From Halosimplex litoreum (lineage in GTDB: Archaea > Halobacteriota > Halobacteria > Halobacteriales > Haloarculaceae), in NCBI RefSeq assembly GCF_016065055.1, contig NZ_CP065856.1:2169836-2233835 (forward strand): DNA of 64,000 nt. The letters are read 5' to 3'. This document shows positions 20,446 through 31,123 of the stretch, one piece after another; the first letter of the stretch is position 1; the number at the start of each line of letters is the position of its first letter. Both the position numbers and the translations under genes were made by a program. The notes under the pieces are model-generated. The model did no database searches. It saw only the letters and a program-made list of their open reading frames with translations, and was not told the DNA's origin.

Positions 20446-20798
20446 GACCGCTCTCGGGACTGACTTACCAGAAAGCCACAGCCGGCGATCAGGACGACGA
20501 CGCCGCCGAGCAGAAGGGTCCCGCTTCCGACCGCCGTCCCGACGACGATCCCCGTCCAGGCGAACCCGAAGACGCCGTGGGCCAGCGCGAACAGTCGCCG
20601 ACCCCGCCGGTAGAAGACGACCGCACCGAGCAACAGCGCGCCCGCGAGGACGACCGCCGACAGCGCGACCGGCCGCACGCGCAGGCCACCGACCGGGACG
20701 GGCCCGACCAGCGGTTCGAGCAGAAAGGTCAGCCCCGCGAGGCCGACGAGCGTCCCGATGGCGGCCGGTCCGAGTTCGATGTCGAGCGTGTCGGTCAC
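20442..20798 (-). CDS. Small four-helix membrane protein, unknown
   Basis: 118 residues with four hydrophobic segments (about 13-33, 45-62, 70-88, 92-110) and short loops; the C-terminus ends SQSRERS. Codon use is normal for the region. Its stop overlaps the DUF373 stop in a tail-to-tail arrangement. No family was recognised. Confidence 0.65.
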   Translation of the reverse strand: MTDTLDIELGPAAIGTLVGLAGLTFLLEPLVGPVPVGGLRVRPVALSAVVLAGALLLGAVVFYRRGRRLFALAHGVFGFAWTGIVVGTAVGSGTLLLGGVVVLIAGCGFLVSQSRERS

Positions 20799-20898
20799 GA
20801 CCCACCGTTGGGACCGGACCGGAGTGAACGTTCCGACCGGTCCCGGACACGACGGACCGCGACCGCCGTCTGCGACGGTCTCGACTCCGGCGACGGTA

Positions 20899-20907
20899 CT
20901 TTTATCG
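20899..20907 (+). promoter_or_regulatory. TATA box upstream of the large sensor kinase
   Basis: CTTTTATCG lies about 28 bases before a GTG at 20931 and about 120 bases before the preferred kinase ATG at 21023. It implies either a leaderless leader ORF or a leadered kinase transcript. Confidence 0.5.
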
Positions 20908-20930
20908 CGCCTGCCCCGCTACCCGAAGTC

Positions 20931-21026
20931 GTGTCAACGATCGGACTATGGGGTGGTCGGAGGGCCCGTGGTGGGCTGCGACGGTGGCCCCCGCCGGTCG
21001 CTCGAGGGGCTGGAAACCGACGATGA
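20931..21026 (+). other. Possible leader ORF upstream of the large kinase (31 codons)
   Basis: GTG at 20931 opens a frame that begins VSTIGLWGGRRARGG, contains about ten arginines and ends at TGA 21024-21026, overlapping the kinase ATG (ATGA). The position at leaderless distance from CTTTTATCG supports translation; the basic composition argues against a normal haloarchaeal protein. Confidence 0.3.
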
Positions 21027-24000
21027 CGGGCGGGGAGTCGGGGCCAGCCGACGGCGGAGCGGGGGGTGAGGCCGCCGTCGACGCGGTCGTGGCGCGTCGG
21101 TGTGTCGCCGTGGCGCTCGCGGACGGCCGCGTCGCCGACGCGACGGGCCCGCTCGACGACGTTCTGGGGGTCGACCCGGCGGTCGCGGTCGGTGAGGCGG
21201 ACTTCTACGACGGGCTCGCGGCCGCGTCGACCGACGGCGGGCCGGTCGAGCGGATCGCGGCGGCGGCCGCCGAGGGCACGACAACCGACGGGACCGTCGT
21301 GGCGGTCGAGACCGATGCGGGCCGACGCGTGTATCGCCACGTCGGTCTGGCGTGTCCCGCCGACTCGGTCGCCGACCGCGCAGAGGTGTTCGAGGACGTG
21401 ACGCGGCTCCGCGAGGCGGCCGACCGGCTCGACCTGTTCGAGACGCTCGCCGAGCGCGCACGGGACGGCCTGTTCGCGACCGACGGCACGGGCAGGGTCG
21501 TCCACTGTGCCGAGTCGTTCGCCTCCTGGCTCGGCGCCGAGCCGGCGACGCTGGTCGGCCGACGAGTCGAGCGGTTCGTCGCCGAGCGCGAACGCCCCGC
21601 GTGGGCGACCGCGGTCGCCGACCTCGACCCCGAGACCGAGCTGACTCGCGAGTTCGAGTTCAGGTGGCGGGGCTCGCGGGTCGGACTCTCGGTCGCGCTG
21701 ACCGGACGGCCGGGCGGGGGCGTCCTCGGCGCGGTCCGCCGTCCCGGACGGGAGGCCGAGCGGGCCGACCGCGCCGAACAGTACCGGACGCTCGTCGAGA
21801 ACGCCGCCGACCCGATGTGGGTCGTCGACGCCGACGACCGGATCGCCCTCGCCAACGCGGCGATGGGCGAGTTCCTCGGCCGCGACCCCGCGGACCTGGC
21901 GGGGCTGGCGGTGAGCGACCCGGTCCCGTCCGAAGCGGCCGACCGGATCGCCGCCGCCCTGGAGACCGTTCGCGCGGGCGACCGGCGCCGGTGGCACGAC
22001 ACCGACCTGCGACTCCCGGACGCGGACGGGCGAGACCGCCGGTTCGAGGCCACGTTCGGGCCGGTGCGGGCCGACGGGGCGGTCGTCGGAACGGTCGGCA
22101 CGTTCCGAGACGTGACCGAGCGCGAGCGCCGCCGGACGGAGCTCGAACGGCTCCGTCGGTTACTCGCCGGCGTCGTCCGCACGGACATCGCCGACGGTGT
22201 CCGCGAGATCGGCGAGCTGGCCGACCGCCTGATCGAGGCCGTCGACGGCGAGCCCGCGGCGCTGGCGGGGTCGATCCGCGACCGCGCCGAGGCGATGGCG
22301 GCGCTTGTCACCAAGACCGCGGCGGTCGACCGCATCGTCGACACCGACCCCGAACCGACGACCGTCGCCCTCGAGACGGCCGTCGATCGGGCGGTCACGT
22401 CGGTCGACGACGGTTCGGCGGCGACCGTCGACGTGGACGTGCCGTCGGTCGACGTCCGGGCCGTCCCGGTCGTCGATCTGGCGGTGCGCAACCTCCTCGA
22501 GAACGCCGTCGAGCACAGCTCGACGAGCGATCGGCCGGGTGCCGATGACGCCGTCGAGCACGGCTCGACGAGCCCTGCTTCGCAGACTCGACAGGACGCG
22601 CTCGCTCACTCCGGCGAGGAGCCGACCGTCTCGGTGACGGCGACGGTCGCCGAGCGGTCGGTGACCCTCTCGGTCGTCGACGACGGCCCGGGGATCCCCG
22701 ACGCGGAGCTGGCCGCGCTCGAACGCGGCGCGGAGACGCCGCTGGAACACGGCAGCGGCGTCGGCCTCTGGCTCGTCGAGTGGGTCGTCACGAAGTCCGG
22801 CGGCGACCTGTCGTTCGAGACCGACGACGGCACGCGCGCGGCGATCCGGTTCGACCGCGCCGACGCCGCGACCGGTCCGCCGAACGGCTCCGACGGCCAG
22901 GGGGCGACCGTGGGGGGGCCAGACGACGCCGACGTCCACGCCTGTCACCTCGACCCCGATCGCTCGGCGACGGCGCGGATCCGCGATGCCGCCGCCGCCG
23001 TCAGGCCGACCGTCACGGTCGAGCGCGCCGAGGGCGTCGACGGCGCCGTCGACGCGCTCGCGACCGGCCGCGTCGACTGCCTGGTCACCGACCGCCTCGA
23101 CGACCCCGGCTGGGACCGGCTCGCCGACGCGGCCGCGGCGGCCGACGCCCCGATCGTCTGCTACGCCGGCGCCGCCCACACGGCCGACGAGGCGCGTCTC
23201 ACCGCCGTCGACAGCCTCGTCGAGAAGGGCACTGGGACCGCCCCGGCCGCCTTCCTGGTCGAGAAGCTCCTCGCGCTCGTCGGCGTCGACGCGCCCCGAG
23301 AGCGGGACGCCAAAGCGGGGGCGACCGGAAGCGACACCGACACCGGGGCCCCGGAGCCGTCCGCTGGCGACCCCGCTCGGCGGTCCGCCGGTGCGGCCCT
23401 CCAGGTCGCGACCGACCCGGCGACCGTGACTCGCGTGCCGGACGACCACCCCGGATTCGCCGACGCCGTCGACCCGCCGGCCGGCGGCGAGGGCGCGGCG
23501 CTCGTGCCTGCGACGGCCGGGGCGAGTCGACGCCGTGTCGGCGAGTGGAACCTATCGCTGTCCGTCGACGACGAGGACCTCCAGGTGCGCTACGCCCGGG
23601 ACCTGACGCCGGCGGTCGCGCGCGAGCGGCGGTGTGCGCTGCTGTCGGCGCTGGTCGACCACGCCCGCGACCGCATCTCGGTCGTCGACGCCAACGGCGA
23701 GGTGGTGTACCACAACGAGGCGTTCGCCGACGCGCTGGGCCACGAGGACATGGTCGGGGTCCACTCGGCGGAGTTCATGGCGCCGGGCGAGCTGGAGAAA
23801 GGGCAACTGGCCGTCCAGCGACTGCTCGCGACGCCGGAGCTGGACAGCGAGGCCCTCGACGTGGCCTTCGAGACGGCCGACGGCGAGCGGGTCACGCTGG
23901 CGGTCCACTTCGCGGTCCGACGCGAGGCCGGCGAGTACGCCGGGGTCGTCAACGTCGCTCGCGACGTGACCGGCGCCGCCGGAGATCCGCGACTCGAACG

Positions 24001-25108
24001 CGCCCGGACGCTCGTCGAGAGCGCCGGCGACCCGATGTTCGTCGTCGACGCCGACGGCCGGCTGGCGCTGGTCAACGAGGCGCTCGAACGCCTGCTCGGT
24101 CGCCCACGGTCGTCGCTGCGGGGCACCCGCGTCGAGGCGGTCTTCTCGGCGGTCACCGCCGACGACGGCCGAACCGGCGACGGCGACCGGAACCCGGACG
24201 GCGGCACCGACGAGTGGTGGCGACCCGCCGGCCCAGACCGGACCTTCTGTGCCCGCGTCCGCGGCGCCGACGGCGACCGCCACCGCTACGAGCTGACCGT
24301 CGCCGACCCCGACGCCTTCGACGGGGCCGTCTGCACCTGTCGGGAAGTCACCGCCCGCGAGCGCCGCGCCGCGGAACTCGCCCGGCTCAAACGGGTGCTC
24401 GGTCGGGTCCTCCGACACAATCTCCGCAACGAACTCACGCTCGTGACCGGCCACGCCCAGCTCGTCGCTCGCACACTCGCCGACGGTGACGACACCGCGG
24501 CCACCGGTATCGACGGTGCCGACGACACCGCGGACGCGACCGACCCGATCGCGCTGGCGCGGTCGATCCAGCGCGCGGGCGCCGACCTCGCGGCGACCGC
24601 TACGACGGCCCGCGCGGCCGAGCGGGCGCTCGAACCCCACGACACCCAGCGCGTCCAGTCGCTCTCGACGGTCGTCGACGCGGCCGCCGAAGCAGCCGTC
24701 GAGCACCGCCGACCCGTGGCCATCTCCGCGTCCCTCCCGGACGCGTGTTCGGTCGTCGTCCCGCCGTCGCTCGTGACGGCGTTCGAGGCGCTGTTGGGTG
24801 CGCTCGCCCGAGCGAGCGAGGCCGACGCTCCGGTCGTCCGGATCCGAGCGAGCGAGAGCGACGGGTGGGTCGAGATCCGCGTCTCGGTCCCGGACTCGCG
24901 GGTCGACCGCGAGACCGTCGCCCCGTTCGTCGCGCCGCCCGAGGCGGCCCTCGACCACCATCGTGACGCCGGCGCCTGGCTGTTCGCCTGGGTCCTCGAC
25001 CGCGCTGACGGGCGCGCTCACCTCGACGAATCGTCCGAGTCGCCCGCCGTCGCCCTCTCGCTGCCCGCCGCCGACGACGCGACGGCGGGCGAATCCACGA
25101 CGGAGTGA
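21023..25108 (+). CDS. Giant multi-PAS tandem histidine kinase-like protein
   Basis: 1361 residues, no membrane segment. Order of parts: PAS-like (about 20-120); PAS (136-245); PAS (254-370); a dimerisation helix pair with T387 where the phospho-His should be (VVRTDIADGV); an intact ATPase domain (488-613, with NLLENAVEHS, DDGPGIP, GSGVGLWL); a receiver-like domain without the usual aspartate set (637-756); two more PAS domains (872-985, 995-1110); a second dimerisation helix with H1132 (RVLRHNLRNELTL); and a C-terminal ATPase-like region lacking the N-box Asn and the DxGxG loop. So one half keeps the ATP site and the other the His. ATG 21023 is preferred over 20948, whose extra 25 residues are Trp-rich. 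Confidence 0.85.
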   Translation: MTGGESGPADGGAGGEAAVDAVVARRCVAVALADGRVADATGPLDDVLGVDPAVAVGEADFYDGLAAASTDGGPVERIAAAAAEGTTTDGTVVAVETDAGRRVYRHVGLACPADSVADRAEVFEDVTRLREAADRLDLFETLAERARDGLFATDGTGRVVHCAESFASWLGAEPATLVGRRVERFVAERERPAWATAVADLDPETELTREFEFRWRGSRVGLSVALTGRPGGGVLGAVRRPGREAERADRAEQYRTLVENAADPMWVVDADDRIALANAAMGEFLGRDPADLAGLAVSDPVPSEAADRIAAALETVRAGDRRRWHDTDLRLPDADGRDRRFEATFGPVRADGAVVGTVGTFRDVTERERRRTELERLRRLLAGVVRTDIADGVREIGELADRLIEAVDGEPAALAGSIRDRAEAMAALVTKTAAVDRIVDTDPEPTTVALETAVDRAVTSVDDGSAATVDVDVPSVDVRAVPVVDLAVRNLLENAVEHSSTSDRPGADDAVEHGSTSPASQTRQDALAHSGEEPTVSVTATVAERSVTLSVVDDGPGIPDAELAALERGAETPLEHGSGVGLWLVEWVVTKSGGDLSFETDDGTRAAIRFDRADAATGPPNGSDGQGATVGGPDDADVHACHLDPDRSATARIRDAAAAVRPTVTVERAEGVDGAVDALATGRVDCLVTDRLDDPGWDRLADAAAAADAPIVCYAGAAHTADEARLTAVDSLVEKGTGTAPAAFLVEKLLALVGVDAPRERDAKAGATGSDTDTGAPEPSAGDPARRSAGAALQVATDPATVTRVPDDHPGFADAVDPPAGGEGAALVPATAGASRRRVGEWNLSLSVDDEDLQVRYARDLTPAVARERRCALLSALVDHARDRISVVDANGEVVYHNEAFADALGHEDMVGVHSAEFMAPGELEKGQLAVQRLLATPELDSEALDVAFETADGERVTLAVHFAVRREAGEYAGVVNVARDVTGAAGDPRLERARTLVESAGDPMFVVDADGRLALVNEALERLLGRPRSSLRGTRVEAVFSAVTADDGRTGDGDRNPDGGTDEWWRPAGPDRTFCARVRGADGDRHRYELTVADPDAFDGAVCTCREVTARERRAAELARLKRVLGRVLRHNLRNELTLVTGHAQLVARTLADGDDTAATGIDGADDTADATDPIALARSIQRAGADLAATATTARAAERALEPHDTQRVQSLSTVVDAAAEAAVEHRRPVAISASLPDACSVVVPPSLVTAFEALLGALARASEADAPVVRIRASESDGWVEIRVSVPDSRVDRETVAPFVAPPEAALDHHRDAGAWLFAWVLDRADGRAHLDESSESPAVALSLPAADDATAGESTTE
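22505..22573 (+). repeat. 24-bp direct repeat inside the kinase ATPase domain
   Basis: The segment 22505-22528 recurs at 22550-22573 with one mismatch, a 45-base (15-codon) period. It encodes AVEHSSTS and AVEHGSTS, followed by a Ser/Gln/Arg/Asp-rich linker. The insertion lies between the N-box and the DxGxG loop, where ATPase domains tolerate loops. Confidence 0.8.
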
Positions 25109-25195
25109 CGCGCGGTCCAGCGACACGCGTTCGCCCCCGGCGGGCGCCGCCCGGGCGATAGCAACGACCATGAACGTGGCAACTGATCGATCTGT

Positions 25196-27490
25196 ATGGT
25201 CGGATTCGACTTCCGTGGTTGTTACGGGTCGGGGGCGACGGACGGAGCGAGGGCGACGGCCCACGCACGACCGGGTTCCGACGCGGCCAGCGGCGGCGGG
25301 CGTGCGACCGACGAGGCGTCGTCGGTACCGGCGTCGCTCGGTGCCCTCGGCCCACGACTGGCGTCGCCGGTCGGAACCGCCCAGGACGGCGAGAACAACG
25401 TCTGGATCGCCGACTCGGGGCACAACCGGCTACTCGTCGTCGACGACGAACTGGAGCGACTGCTCGCCACCGTCGGCGGGGTCGGGACTGCGCCGGGTCG
25501 GTTCGACCTCCCGATGCGGCTCGCACACCACCCGACCGACCGGGCGATGTACGTCGCCGACACCGGCAACGGCCGGCTCCAGCGGCTCGAATACGAGTAC
25601 GACGGAGCGACGCCTCGTGTGACCGCCGCCGAGGCGTTCGCGGCGGACGGTGGGTTCCACCCGAACGGCGTCGTCGCCCACGAGTACTGGGACGGTGTCC
25701 GGGTGATCGCGGCCGACGAGTTCTATCGGGAGGGCGGCGACCTCCGGAGTCGGCTGGTGGTCTTCGACGAGTCGGGCGAACAGATCCGGTCGATCCGCAC
25801 GGTCGGCGACGACAACCCGACGCCGCTGTACTGGCCCCAGGGGCTCGACACCGACGACGAGGGCCGGATCTACGTGGCGAACACGGGCTACGGGGTGCTC
25901 GCGGACGGTCCCACCGGGCCGCCGAAGCTCGCGACGGTCGTCCGCTGCGACCGGACCGGCGCCGCGGCGCCCTTCGAGGGACTCGCCGACGAGACCCTCG
26001 CGGAGCTGCCGATGCCCCGCGACGTGGCCGTCGTCGGTGCAGGCGCCGACGCGCAGATTTTCGTTCCCGACGCGGCGACCGGACGGATCCACGCCTACAC
26101 GAGCGTCGGCGTCCCCGACGGCGCCGTCCCCGAAGACGGCGAGGACATCCGCGCCAACGCCGCCCTTGAAGACGGGATCGGGATCCCACGCGACGGCGCT
26201 CGGCGAGGTGACGAGTCCGTCCCGACGGACGCCGGCGGCCAGGACCGATTCCGCGGTCCGGTCGGCATCGCCGGCTTCGAAGGGGTGTCGGTGCCCGATT
26301 CCGACGCCGACGACCCGACGCTCGCGGTCCTGACGAGCGAGGCGCTCGCGGGGCGGGTCGGCGCCTACGCCGTCGACGTACACACCGAGTCCGCCCGGCG
26401 CCTCGGGGCCGTCGGCGCCCCGCGCGACCGGACGGGGCAGTTCTCGGTCCCCACCGGGTCGGTCGTCGTCGCCGACCCCGAGTCGCCGCTCGGTCGCTGC
26501 GCGCTCGTCGGCGACGGCGCGAACGGGCGCCTCCAGCGGATCGCGTTCGACGGTGCTGCCGACGAGAGCGACCCCGCCGCCGCAACCGACGGCGGTCGCG
26601 TCGCCAGCGGCGGCGACCGCGGCGGCGCTCGCGCGGGCGGCCGCGTCGACCCGGTAGCGCTGCCCGCGACGCGGTTCCCGTTCGGGTTGGCCTACTGGCC
26701 CGCCGGCACCGGTGGCGGGGGGCGGCTATTCGTCACCGACTACACCGCCCACTATCGGAACAGCGACCGGTCGGGGCAGATCCACGTCTACGCCGTCGAC
26801 GAGGCGCCCGCCGGCGGGGGCGGTGAGGGCACCGACGACGGGGCGGGCACGGGCGTCTCGCTCACCCTCGTCGACTCCTTCGGCGCCTGGGGGATGGGCG
26901 ACGGCGAGGTGAAGCTCCCCCGGGGGATCGCGATCGACCCGCAGGGCGAGGGGGTGGCCCGGGTCTGGGTCGCCGACTCGGCGAACGGCCGGGTCGGCGT
27001 GTGGGACTACGATCGGGTCCTCGACGGGGCCGATCCGCTGGGCGACCGCGGCGGGTTCGGCCACTACGACGGCGGCTTCTGGAACCCCTCTGACGTGGCC
27101 GTCGGCGAGCGCGGCGTCTACGTCGCCGACGAGAACAACAACCGCCTCCAGCGGTTCGACGGCGACGAGTGGCACCCCGTCGGGACGCCGGGCTACGACG
27201 GCGGCCACGAGTTCCTGCTTCCCATCTCCGTCGCCGCCCGCGACGGCCATCTCTTCGTCCTCGACCTGGTGAGTCGCTCGATACGGGTGTTCGCCGAGGA
27301 CGGGAACGCCGAGGGCGGCCTGCGTCCGGTCGACGAACACCGGGCGTTCGGCGGCGACGCCGCCGCCGGGGAGCTGTGGCTGCCCTACCTGCTGTCGGTC
27401 GGCGACGCCTCGGACGCGCCGGGCGTCGACGTCGTGGTGCCGGACTCGACGCTGCACGTCGCACAGCACTACACGTGGGGCGGGGCGTAG
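25196..27490 (+). CDS. NHL-repeat beta-propeller protein
   Basis: 764 residues with at least six NHL-type blades: NNVWIADSGHNRLLVVD, RAMYVADTGNGRLQRLE, GRIYVANTGYGVL, QIFVPDAATGRIHAY, RVWVADSANGRVGVWD and GVYVADENNNRLQRFDG. Loops rich in Gly and Asp (about 470-490 and 545-560) separate them, suggesting two propellers. There is no signal peptide, so it is cytosolic and probably a protein-interaction scaffold or a lactonase-like enzyme. It follows the giant kinase on the same strand after 87 bases, so a signalling link is possible but unproven. Confidence 0.85.
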   Translation: MVGFDFRGCYGSGATDGARATAHARPGSDAASGGGRATDEASSVPASLGALGPRLASPVGTAQDGENNVWIADSGHNRLLVVDDELERLLATVGGVGTAPGRFDLPMRLAHHPTDRAMYVADTGNGRLQRLEYEYDGATPRVTAAEAFAADGGFHPNGVVAHEYWDGVRVIAADEFYREGGDLRSRLVVFDESGEQIRSIRTVGDDNPTPLYWPQGLDTDDEGRIYVANTGYGVLADGPTGPPKLATVVRCDRTGAAAPFEGLADETLAELPMPRDVAVVGAGADAQIFVPDAATGRIHAYTSVGVPDGAVPEDGEDIRANAALEDGIGIPRDGARRGDESVPTDAGGQDRFRGPVGIAGFEGVSVPDSDADDPTLAVLTSEALAGRVGAYAVDVHTESARRLGAVGAPRDRTGQFSVPTGSVVVADPESPLGRCALVGDGANGRLQRIAFDGAADESDPAAATDGGRVASGGDRGGARAGGRVDPVALPATRFPFGLAYWPAGTGGGGRLFVTDYTAHYRNSDRSGQIHVYAVDEAPAGGGGEGTDDGAGTGVSLTLVDSFGAWGMGDGEVKLPRGIAIDPQGEGVARVWVADSANGRVGVWDYDRVLDGADPLGDRGGFGHYDGGFWNPSDVAVGERGVYVADENNNRLQRFDGDEWHPVGTPGYDGGHEFLLPISVAARDGHLFVLDLVSRSIRVFAEDGNAEGGLRPVDEHRAFGGDAAAGELWLPYLLSVGDASDAPGVDVVVPDSTLHVAQHYTWGGA

Positions 27491-28879: not shown

Positions 28880-29009
28880 ATTGCCGTTTTCCTTGAGGCG
28901 ATTTCGACGGAACGCGACCCCACGAAACTCGAGTTTGTTCGGGATCGTGGAACGATATTTCGACGATGCCCGAGGGGGGTGTCGACGATCCCCGCGCCCC
29001 GTGGGGAAG

Positions 29010-29053
29010 ATTTATCAACGAGACTGAGGAACGACCGCCTATCAGGGGGTGAT
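29010..29053 (+). promoter_or_regulatory. TATA box and SD for the second sensor kinase
   Basis: ATTTATC at 29010-29016 and an SD-like GGGGGTGAT at 29045-29053 just before GTG 29057. This gives a short leadered transcript and fixes the start. Confidence 0.6.
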
Positions 29054-29056
29054 GTG

Positions 29057-31123
29057 GTGAGCAAATACCTGCACGGACCGTCGACGGTCGTGATAGCCGC
29101 CGGCGAGGGCGCGGTAGACGAAACCGTCCTCGACGCGGTCGACCGGTGGTCGTTCCCGTCACCGGTGACGAGCGACGTCGTCCGCGCGGCGGCGGCGACC
29201 GACACCGATCCCGCGGTCGAGGCGGTCGCGGTCGCCGACCGCGCGAGCGCGCTGGATCGGCTCGCCGACGACGAGTCGGTCGGCTGTCTCGTCGTCGACG
29301 ACACCCTCGCCGACCCCGTGGACTGCGTCGCCGCCGCGACCGACCGGTACCCGGATCTACCGGTGGTCGTCTACGCCGCCGACGGCGACGAGTCGCTCGC
29401 CAGCGCGGCGACGCGGGCGGGGGCGTTCGCCTACCTCCCCCGGCCGGCCGACCCGGCGGTCTCGACCCACGAGACGCTGCTGGAGACCGTCGCCGAGGCG
29501 CTGGCCACCCACGACAGGCGCTACCGCGCGGCGACCGACAGCGACATGCTCGACGCCGTCCTCTCGGAGCTGGAACTGCCGCTGTACGTCAAGGACGAAC
29601 GGGCCCGCCACCTGAAGATAGCCGACGTACACGGCGCGCCCAGTCCCGCCGAGGCCATCGGCAAGACCGACTGGGAGCTGTACTCCTGGGACGAGGAAGC
29701 GAAAGTCGAGGCGCTGGGCGACGACCGGCTCGTCATCGACGAGGGCGAGGAGATTCGCGACCGCGAGGAGCGCCACGGACCGCCGGAGGCCGGCCGCTGG
29801 CTCCGCACGACCAAAGTACCCTGGCGCGACGGCGACCGAACCCGCGGCCTCGTCGGCGTCACGCTCGACGTGACCGACGAGAAGCGACAGATCCGCGACC
29901 TGCGGGCGCAGAACCGCCGGCTCGACGACTTCACGAGCTTCGTCGCCCACGACCTGCGCAACCCGCTCCACGTCGCGATGGCCTACCAGGAGTTCGTCCG
30001 CGAGGGCGACCCCGAGGCCGCCGAGCGGGTGAGCGACGCTCTCGACCGGATGGCGGAACTCGTCGAGGACGTGAGCGAACTCGCCGCCTCCAGCGGTACC
30101 GCGCCCGCCCCCGTCGGCGGTGTCGAGGTCGGATCCTTCCTCCAGGTCGTCTGGGACGAGGTCGCCACTGCCGCGGCGACGCTCGAGATCGACCTCCCGG
30201 CGGAGACGATCCTCTACACCAACCGCCTCCAGCTGAAGCCGCTGTTCGAGAACTGCTTCGAGCGCTGTCTCGAGCGCGCCGGTCCCGACGTGACCGTTCG
30301 CGTCGGGTCGACCGACGACGGCTTCTTCGTCGCCGACGACGGCCCGCCCGTCCCCGACGAGGAGCGCGAGGAACTGCTCGAAGCCGGCTACAGCACCGCC
30401 GCGACCGGGACCGACCTCGCCATCGTCTCGGAGGTCGCCGACACCCACGGCTGGGACCTCCGGATCGGCGAGAGTCGCACGGGCGGCGCTCGCTTCGAAT
30501 TCGGCAACGTCCTGCTGGTGACCGACCCCGACCCGCTCCCGGGGACCGGCCGGACGCGACCGCTGACGACCGGCCGGGACGTGGGACAGGTGCTCAACGC
30601 CGGGGAGTCCTCGCACGACGAGTCGGTCGACCGCTGGACGCTCCGCGCGGCCGGCGACAACCTCCTCGGACGGGTCAACGAGTGTCACTTCCGGTGGGCC
30701 TCGATCCGTGGCCCTTGCCGCGTCGAGGCGCGTCTCGACGAGTTCGACGCGCCCGCCGACCGGAGCAAAGCCGGCGTGATGCTGCGCGACGACGCCAGCG
30801 AACCGGCGACGTTCGGCTACATCGGTCGGACCGGCGACGGCCGCACGGAGGTCTGCTGGCGGACCGCCGACGGCGAGCCCACCCGCGCGCAACTGCTCGA
30901 GAGCGGCGAGCGCAACGTCGAGTGGTTCGCCATCGAGCGTACCGGCGACCGCGTCACCGTCTTCGTCTCCCCGAACCGCGAGGAGTGGCACGCCGTCGAC
31001 CAGCGCTCGGTCGCCCTCGACGACCCGATCTGCGGCGGCCTCACCGCCTGCTCGACCATGATCGGCGCCTACTGCGAGGCCACCTTCGACCACGTCTCCG
31101 CCGTCGAACTCGACGGGGAGTGA
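29057..31123 (+). CDS. Cytosolic histidine kinase with C-terminal DUF1349-like beta-sandwich
   Basis: 688 residues. An N-terminal receiver-like domain (about 5-155) without an obvious phospho-acceptor set is followed by a PAS domain (166-275), a HisKA helix with H298 in FVAHDLRNPLHVAM, and an ATPase domain (396-495, LFENCFERCLE, VADDGPPVP, TGTDLAIVSEVAD). The last 180 residues (509-688) form a separate beta-rich domain: WTLRAAGDNLLGRVNECHF, SKAGVMLRDDASEPATFGYI, NVEWFAIERTGDRVTVFVSP and MIGAYCEATFDHVSAVEL, the pattern of DUF1349 concanavalin-like domains. No membrane segment is present. Start GTG 29057 (or 29054) is set by a strong SD. Its partner regulator is not in the window. Confidence 0.85.
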   Translation: MSKYLHGPSTVVIAAGEGAVDETVLDAVDRWSFPSPVTSDVVRAAAATDTDPAVEAVAVADRASALDRLADDESVGCLVVDDTLADPVDCVAAATDRYPDLPVVVYAADGDESLASAATRAGAFAYLPRPADPAVSTHETLLETVAEALATHDRRYRAATDSDMLDAVLSELELPLYVKDERARHLKIADVHGAPSPAEAIGKTDWELYSWDEEAKVEALGDDRLVIDEGEEIRDREERHGPPEAGRWLRTTKVPWRDGDRTRGLVGVTLDVTDEKRQIRDLRAQNRRLDDFTSFVAHDLRNPLHVAMAYQEFVREGDPEAAERVSDALDRMAELVEDVSELAASSGTAPAPVGGVEVGSFLQVVWDEVATAAATLEIDLPAETILYTNRLQLKPLFENCFERCLERAGPDVTVRVGSTDDGFFVADDGPPVPDEEREELLEAGYSTAATGTDLAIVSEVADTHGWDLRIGESRTGGARFEFGNVLLVTDPDPLPGTGRTRPLTTGRDVGQVLNAGESSHDESVDRWTLRAAGDNLLGRVNECHFRWASIRGPCRVEARLDEFDAPADRSKAGVMLRDDASEPATFGYIGRTGDGRTEVCWRTADGEPTRAQLLESGERNVEWFAIERTGDRVTVFVSPNREEWHAVDQRSVALDDPICGGLTACSTMIGAYCEATFDHVSAVELDGE

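Follow-up and report, generated by a model that had tools for sequence, protein, structure and literature searches.

In the genome of Halosimplex litoreum (4.16 Mb, one contig), the 64,000-nucleotide stretch from position 2,169,836 to 2,233,835 of contig NZ_CP065856.1 (further referred to as the window) contains a gene for a fused double histidine kinase, of which the first half has an intact ATPase domain and no phosphoacceptor His, and the second half retains this His and has lost its ATPase motifs. This raises the question whether two such halves may work together as one kinase. Histidine kinases act as dimers, and whether the ATPase domain of one subunit has to act on the His of its partner is usually resolved with engineered mutant pairs. 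The open frame (21023-25108, plus strand) has a translation of 1361 amino acids. It stays open in the 5' direction as far as an ATG at 20948, but the ATG at 21023 was preferred as start, since the residues M1-T2 are identical across all six orthologues. In each of these, the gene is one uninterrupted frame without internal stop, and thus not a split kinase made of two proteins.

Pfam analysis of the fused kinase recognized four PAS stretches and one HATPase_c domain, and neither of the two HisKA domains. Alignment to relatives revealed two units of one kinase family within the chain, namely unit 1 (PAS0-PAS1-PAS2-DHp1-CA1; about residues 28-611) and unit 2 (REC*-PAS0b-PAS3-PAS4-DHp2-CA2; about residues 637-1361), DHp being the helical hairpin with the phosphoacceptor position, CA the ATPase domain, and REC* a degenerate receiver-like domain. 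The boundaries of the PAS0 modules were set by the author from the alignment.

The first half was described in an initial annotation, made from the sequence alone, as an intact ATP-binding domain with a Thr instead of the phosphorylated His, and both statements were borne out. Indeed, CA1 is the sole HATPase_c match in the fused protein (E 2.2e-14) and possesses N490 and N494 of the N-box, D553-x-G555-x-G557 (G1 box), and G577-x-G579-x-G581 (G2 box). Thr387 aligns with the His of all 13 single-unit relatives, and the first H-box lacks R(+3) and T/N(+4) as well. Similarly, phmmer aligned the Thr387 stretch to the H-box of ZraS, a piece that was not significant by itself. The motif NLLENAVEHS, taken earlier as part of the ATPase, holds for its N-box portion; the remainder is the beginning of a 31-residue insertion (residues 495-525) directly behind the N-box Asn, which consists of two palindrome-bearing repeat units and is not present in three of the six orthologues. 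In the AlphaFold2 (AF2) model, the confidence is below 50 in this insertion, and the N-box helix is still kept.

For the second half, the annotated loss of the N-box Asn and DxGxG agreed with the motif table, as N490 and N494 correspond to an Ala and a gap in CA2, DxGxG is gone, and GxGxG has become HxDxG, leaving one G2 glycine of the ATPase residues. CA2 alone matched no Pfam family at E values up to 10. The annotated phosphoacceptor, H1132, was found in RVLRHNLRNEL with N(+1), R(+3), and N(+4), and is conserved in all six orthologues, its region matching the H-box of HK853 weakly (E 0.097). Hence, the His in a DHp hairpin is provided by DHp2 and not by DHp1, and the N, G1, and G2 boxes are provided by CA1 and not by CA2, so that in five of the six orthologues the two catalytic sites lie on different units.

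Structure prediction, proposed earlier as a check, supported the individual folds. The AF2 model of residues 370-1361 (mean predicted local distance difference test score, pLDDT, 69; predicted template modelling score, pTM, 0.46, unreliable for the relation between domains) retained the helical hairpin of DHp1. Residues 1112-1361 (pLDDT 83, pTM 0.77) were modelled as a DHp hairpin with an ATPase-like fold, although the input alignment held intact relatives and may have drawn the model toward a kinase fold. The receiver-like domain reported between the halves was found too, REC* showing all five strands and five helices in turn in the AF2 model, but it is not without aspartates: D644 follows strand 1, and D690 and K735 directly follow strands 3 and 5. 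The receiver residue set is incomplete nonetheless, because P645 stands at the place of the second acidic residue and A715 at that of the Ser/Thr. Pfam did not recognize REC* as a receiver. In H. salinum, the Asp, Thr, and Lys positions are occupied by E, T, and K. The single-unit kinase family is likewise degenerate here, indicating that the degeneration of REC* is not special to the fusion. According to a passage in an archaeal two-component census, up to 40% of the receivers in receiver-kinase proteins may escape phosphorylation (PMC5847659).

Distribution, ancestry, and substitution rates

The fused gene occurred in six of the eight Halosimplex genomes (E 1e-100), among them H. carlsbadense, H. 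pelagicum, and H. salinum. In the remaining two, G001 and the 71% complete G007, the single-unit kinase was the only long match (E 1e-15). A search with the middle part matched 5 of 57 genomes of the family, all of them Halosimplex. With unit 1 as query (E 1e-45), matches were found in 13 of 116 genomes, comprising the eight Halosimplex genomes and five of two other genera, where the matching frames were of single-unit length (740-853 amino acids). Of 117 genomes sampled from the order, 3 matched at E 1e-60. A weak bacterial match came from Pontixanthobacter (L039; E 3e-7). A viral, plasmid, or mobile-element origin was rejected, as viral contigs held no relative and none of 87 matching plasmid records reached a query coverage of at least 80%.

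A random mix of broken and intact sites among orthologues, which had been named as a sign of decay, was not encountered. All six have intact CA1 motif residues and an intact H1132 along with broken CA2 motifs; the first His position is Thr in five, H. salinum being the one with His. In the latter species, this His stands in a first H-box whose +3 and +4 residues are Gly and Arg, an apparent intermediate as judged from its sequence, so that the losses look ordered and not random.

The single-unit paralogue in the host genome (734 amino acids) has the layout REC*-PAS0-PAS-PAS-HisKA-HATPase, and Salinibaculum litoreum and further genomes of the family carry such a relative too. All 13 single-unit rows of the alignment (about 11 distinct sequences, since the pairs L038/L130 and L040/L128 each consist of the same or almost the same sequence) keep the His, R(+3), both N-box Asn residues, and DxGxG; in the G2 box, the first Gly is Ala in 3 of the 13 and the other two are kept throughout. 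Since these relatives keep both the His and the ATPase motifs, the complementary loss goes with the fusion.

Phylogenetic trees of the PAS region (support 100) and of the PAS plus kinase regions (support 99) placed unit 2 as sister to the Halosimplex single-unit kinase, with unit 1 branching apart; the tree from the kinase region alone was unresolved, the unit 2 branches being long. The final tree did not include L041, which is almost identical to L040. An internal tandem duplication was rejected as the origin, since in the first two trees unit 2 groups with the single-unit kinase and not with unit 1. The sequences are read here as a fusion of two paralogues, which could be able to dimerize, after a duplication predating the sampled Halosimplex single-unit kinases.

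Substitution rates were estimated by Nei-Gojobori counts for 10 pairs among the five close orthologues, with 5000 codon bootstraps, excluding the N-box insertion from CA1 and an Asp-rich stretch inside DHp2. CA2 evolved firmly faster than CA1, with a mean nonsynonymous rate (dN) of 0.153 versus 0.072, reversed in 0 of 5000 bootstraps, and mean identities of 75.0% and 87.5%. A weak difference existed between DHp1 and DHp2 (mean dN 0.088 versus 0.053; identities of 83.8% and 91.0%), DHp1 being the higher in 93% of the bootstraps in the close set and in 98.7% in the comparison with H. salinum. The ratios of nonsynonymous to synonymous rates (dN/dS) were 0.35 for CA1, 0.54 for CA2, 0.82 for DHp1, and 0.30 for DHp2, and these contrasts were reversed in 4.0% (ATPases) and 2.4% (DHps) of the bootstraps in the close set.

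Interpretation of the complementary losses

A first interpretation is that the fused protein is one asymmetric kinase, either a single-chain pseudo-dimer or a dimer of two chains, with CA1 supplying the ATPase and His1132 accepting the phosphate; on the present sequences its chances are about even. Two paralogous PAS histidine kinases from one haloarchaeal family would have been joined head to tail, the second ATPase would have been lost prior to the divergence of the six species, and the first H-box would have degenerated, with Thr replacing its His in a common ancestor of five of these species. As the layout PAS0-PAS-PAS-DHp-CA occurs twice in parallel, the chain could fold onto itself as an intramolecular pseudo-dimer (DHp1 with DHp2), or two chains could dimerize. 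We infer that CA1 would bind ATP and phosphorylate His1132 of the other half, making the kinase obligately asymmetric, and that His1132 would hand the phosphate to a response regulator as output, CA2 and REC* being structural or regulatory. More tentatively, and with somewhat less than even confidence, the protein may be a natural single-chain kinase heterodimer, in which one half only donates and the other only accepts phosphate, acting as a one-directional AND-gate for different PAS sensors.

This asymmetric kinase is favored by the pattern of the sites, the rate contrasts, and the state of H. salinum, an apparent intermediate, as well as by the origin from two paralogues, the DHp1 hairpin kept in the model, and the precedent of complementing EnvZ mutants. 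Several observations weigh against it. First, each loss happened once on the tree, so that six sequences represent one loss event per site, and two random losses among four sites are complementary in two of the six ways, which makes the pattern alone weak evidence. Second, the dN/dS contrasts, unlike those in dN, are not significant against H. salinum (reversals of 15% and 30%). Third, the single-unit paralogue has a DHp under far stronger constraint (99.2% identity, dN/dS 0.012) than DHp2 (91.0% identity). Fourth, the pairing of DHp1 with DHp2 is not readable from the AF2 model, and CA1 bears its 31-residue insertion at the N-box. Lastly, the neighbouring kinase (28979-31123) displays mixed losses among its orthologues (L035, L036, L142, L037, L141): in the window and in three close orthologues the His is present and the ATPase is broken, in H. 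salinum both sites are kept, and in G001 the His is replaced by Arg and the ATPase is mostly intact. This indicates that kinase sites of this genus also decay without order. No match to this kinase was present within the 7 kb stretch taken from G003.

Alternatively, the second half may be a histidine phosphotransferase or phosphatase similar to ChpT, Spo0B, or PhyT, with His1132 exchanging phosphate with receivers that obtain it from other kinases, and with a first half that senses and binds ATP without phosphorylating His1132; this seems rather unlikely. An intact-His DHp next to a dead ATPase domain, with motifs lost and an ATPase-like fold predicted to be kept, is the layout of ChpT, and Foldseek matched the second half to many kinases, including HK853, DivL (4q20), and ChpT (4fmt, E 4.7e-9). 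The best VIA-align match was DivL 4q20 (Z 15.9, root-mean-square deviation 4.3, 210 residues aligned); ChpT was not among the 50 VIA-align matches listed, which is uninformative either way. Degenerate kinases of such kind have been described, passages on ChpT and PhyT presenting them as kinases turned into phosphotransferases upon loss of the ATPase (PMC5898713, PMC3433190). Furthermore, each of the six orthologues has Asn at +4 of H1132, and this Asn resembles the HE/DxxN/T phosphatase motif as given in part of one report (PMC3591291), the fit being only loose because the residue at +1 is Asn. This alternative leaves unexplained why the CA1 motifs are retained in all six orthologues and why CA1 evolves more slowly than CA2.

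A decay of the kinase function, with the protein persisting as a PAS sensor or scaffold that signals without phosphotransfer, is unlikely. The relaxed dN/dS values of DHp1 and CA2, the failure of Pfam to find either HisKA domain, and the mixed losses in the neighbouring kinase fit with it, but CA1 and DHp2 remain under constraint, with the same catalytic residues in each of the six orthologues. It is improbable that CA1 acts mainly in trans on another kinase, such as the single-unit paralogue or the kinase at 28979-31123, about 4 kb downstream. The latter keeps its His and has a broken ATPase in the four sequences examined from the clade of five species (window, L035, L036, L142), with H. salinum keeping both, but the two kinases differ in domain layout and H-box sequence, and G001, which lacks the fused kinase, has a downstream kinase without the His instead, a loss that looks like independent drift. 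Finally, GHKL protein kinases such as SpoIIAB phosphorylate Ser/Thr, yet phosphorylation of Thr387 by CA1 in their manner is very improbable. In its favor, the Thr and adjoining Asp are identical in all five sequences without the first His, but this is not remarkable given a mean DHp1 identity of 84% among the five species anyway, and none of the other three kinase domains reaches the dN/dS of DHp1.

If the asymmetric kinase exists as proposed, it would be a natural, testable case of ATPase and His role asymmetry, conserved in a fused protein, and a natural counterpart of the classic laboratory complementation experiment. It would also show how a symmetric dimer can turn, step by step, into an asymmetric machine with two sensory inputs, through fusion, loss of one ATPase, and loss of the other His.

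Feature coordinates, neighbouring genes, and the N-box repeat

Table 1. Fused double histidine kinase of H. litoreum: coordinates of its parts in the window and the basis for each assignment
Feature	Position	Strand	Basis
Fused double histidine kinase, 1361 aa	21023..25108	+	open frame; M1-T2 invariant in 6/6 orthologues
PAS0, N-terminal module of unit 1 (aa 29-121), homologue of module in single-unit kinases	21107..21385	+	alignment
PAS1 (aa 136-241)	21428..21745	+	Pfam PAS families
PAS2 (aa 252-370)	21776..22132	+	Pfam PAS/PAS_4
DHp1 (aa 374-441), helical hairpin kept, phosphoacceptor lost	22142..22345	+	AF2 helices; motif table
Thr387 at phosphoacceptor His position	22181..22183	+	T in 5/6 orthologues, H in H. 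salinum
CA1 (aa 442-611), ATPase with intact N, G1, and G2 boxes	22346..22855	+	HATPase_c E 2.2e-14
31-residue in-frame insertion (aa 495-525), 45-nt and 48-nt palindrome-bearing repeat units	22505..22597	+	not in 3/6 orthologues
REC*, degenerate receiver-like domain (aa 637-755)	22931..23287	+	AF2 fold; Pfam silent
D690, phosphoacceptor position after strand 3	23090..23092	+	D in 5/6 orthologues, E in H. salinum
K735, conserved Lys position after strand 5	23225..23227	+	K in 6/6 orthologues
PAS0b (aa 804-862), beginning of unit 2 sensor part	23432..23608	+	alignment
PAS3 (aa 870-982)	23630..23968	+	Pfam; 92.6% mean identity, five close orthologues
PAS4 (aa 990-1112)	23990..24358	+	Pfam PAS_7 and other PAS families
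DHp2 (aa 1116-1206), H-box intact	24368..24640	+	AF2 hairpin; weak alignment to HK853
His1132, retained phosphoacceptor	24416..24418	+	H in 6/6 orthologues
CA2 (aa 1207-1349), ATPase fold predicted, catalytic motifs lost	24641..25069	+	AF2, Foldseek, VIA-align, motif table

Long minus-strand frames lie opposite the kinase gene (20795-21997, 22160-23449, and 23552-25423) and are probably not genes but a consequence of high G+C codon usage. About 90 bases 3' of the fused kinase and on the same strand, a gene for an NHL-repeat protein (25196-27490) is present, which adjoins the fused kinase in all six loci, the window included. The Halosimplex genome G001, without the fused kinase, contains the NHL-repeat gene, a presumed isocitrate-dehydrogenase-like gene, and the next kinase, so that the NHL-repeat protein is not an obligate partner. 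No response regulator was identified as a partner among the neighbour genes examined (NHL-repeat, isocitrate-dehydrogenase-like, another kinase, and DUF373). The neighbouring kinase at 28979-31123 is a receiver-PAS-kinase with a C-terminal DUF1349-like part.

The insertion in CA1 belongs to an in-frame repeat of 45/48 nucleotides, encoding (A/S)VEHGSTS..., that occurs directly behind the second N-box Asn of histidine kinases. Its pattern has two matches in the window versus 0.05 expected from shuffles. In the host genome, the 21-base repeat pattern had 19 matches (15 exact), versus 0 for the reversed control. The 10 loci concerned comprise nine kinase N-boxes and one other gene (C1:1638141), which we take to be probably a tRNA synthetase gene. 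Among the sampled genomes of the order, 55 of 117 contained the pattern. The repeat core (22508-22528 and 22553-22573 in the window; L074-L092) is a 7-bp hairpin, found in the forms GTCGAGC-ACG-GCTCGAC, GTGGAAC-ACG-GTTCCAC, and GTGGAGC-ACG-GCTCCAC. The arms of different copies are distinguished by paired, compensating changes at synonymous third positions, and 16 of the 19 host-genome copies pair at all seven positions. The repeat may thus be a palindromic element spreading among kinase genes while supplying the residues that it displaces.

Comparison with known split and degenerate kinases

The fused arrangement appears, by analogy, to vary on known themes of split and degenerate kinases (TodS, CheA3/CheA4, EnvZ, ChpT, and PhyT). 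Among the papers listed by the literature searches, none appeared to describe such complementary halves. TodS/TmoS of Pseudomonas combine PAS, a first kinase, a receiver, PAS, and a second kinase in one soluble chain, as outlined in parts of two reports, and their His-Asp-His relay needs His190, Asp500, and His760 all together (PMC4321377, PMC4861429). The fused kinase has that order, with more PAS domains, but it does not have both phosphoacceptor His residues, as it carries Thr for the first one in five of the six orthologues and a receiver with an incomplete set of canonical residues. Accordingly, a TodS-type relay cannot start in the same manner and is unlikely here. CheA3 and CheA4 of Rhodobacter sphaeroides, as described in part of one report, divide the catalytic part and the His over separate units, neither of which is sufficient alone (PMC3591291). 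They are two proteins with whole domains missing and a CheA layout, whereas the fused kinase is one chain of the HisKA type in which the domains are present and the motifs are broken. EnvZ H243A and G2-box mutants, with the ATPase in one and the His in the other, phosphorylate together as heterodimers, as a passage of one report indicates (PMC4734776). Those pairs are laboratory mutants on separate chains; the kinase described here is natural, fused, and conserved.

Two further comparisons concern the halves themselves. ChpT, Spo0B, and PhyT resemble the second half in possessing a DHp with His and a degenerate ATPase fold, but they are separate proteins fed by other receivers, whereas the fused kinase has an intact ATPase in the same chain. 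DivL of Caulobacter, whose phosphoacceptor His is replaced by Tyr, resembles the first half in this replacement while being the top structural match of the second half; unlike the fused kinase, it has no second kinase unit. The direct relative of both halves is the single-unit kinase of Halosimplex and Salinibaculum (L031, L038, L040), with its REC*-PAS0-PAS-PAS-HisKA-HATPase layout, which in contrast to the fused kinase consists of one unit with both catalytic sites intact.

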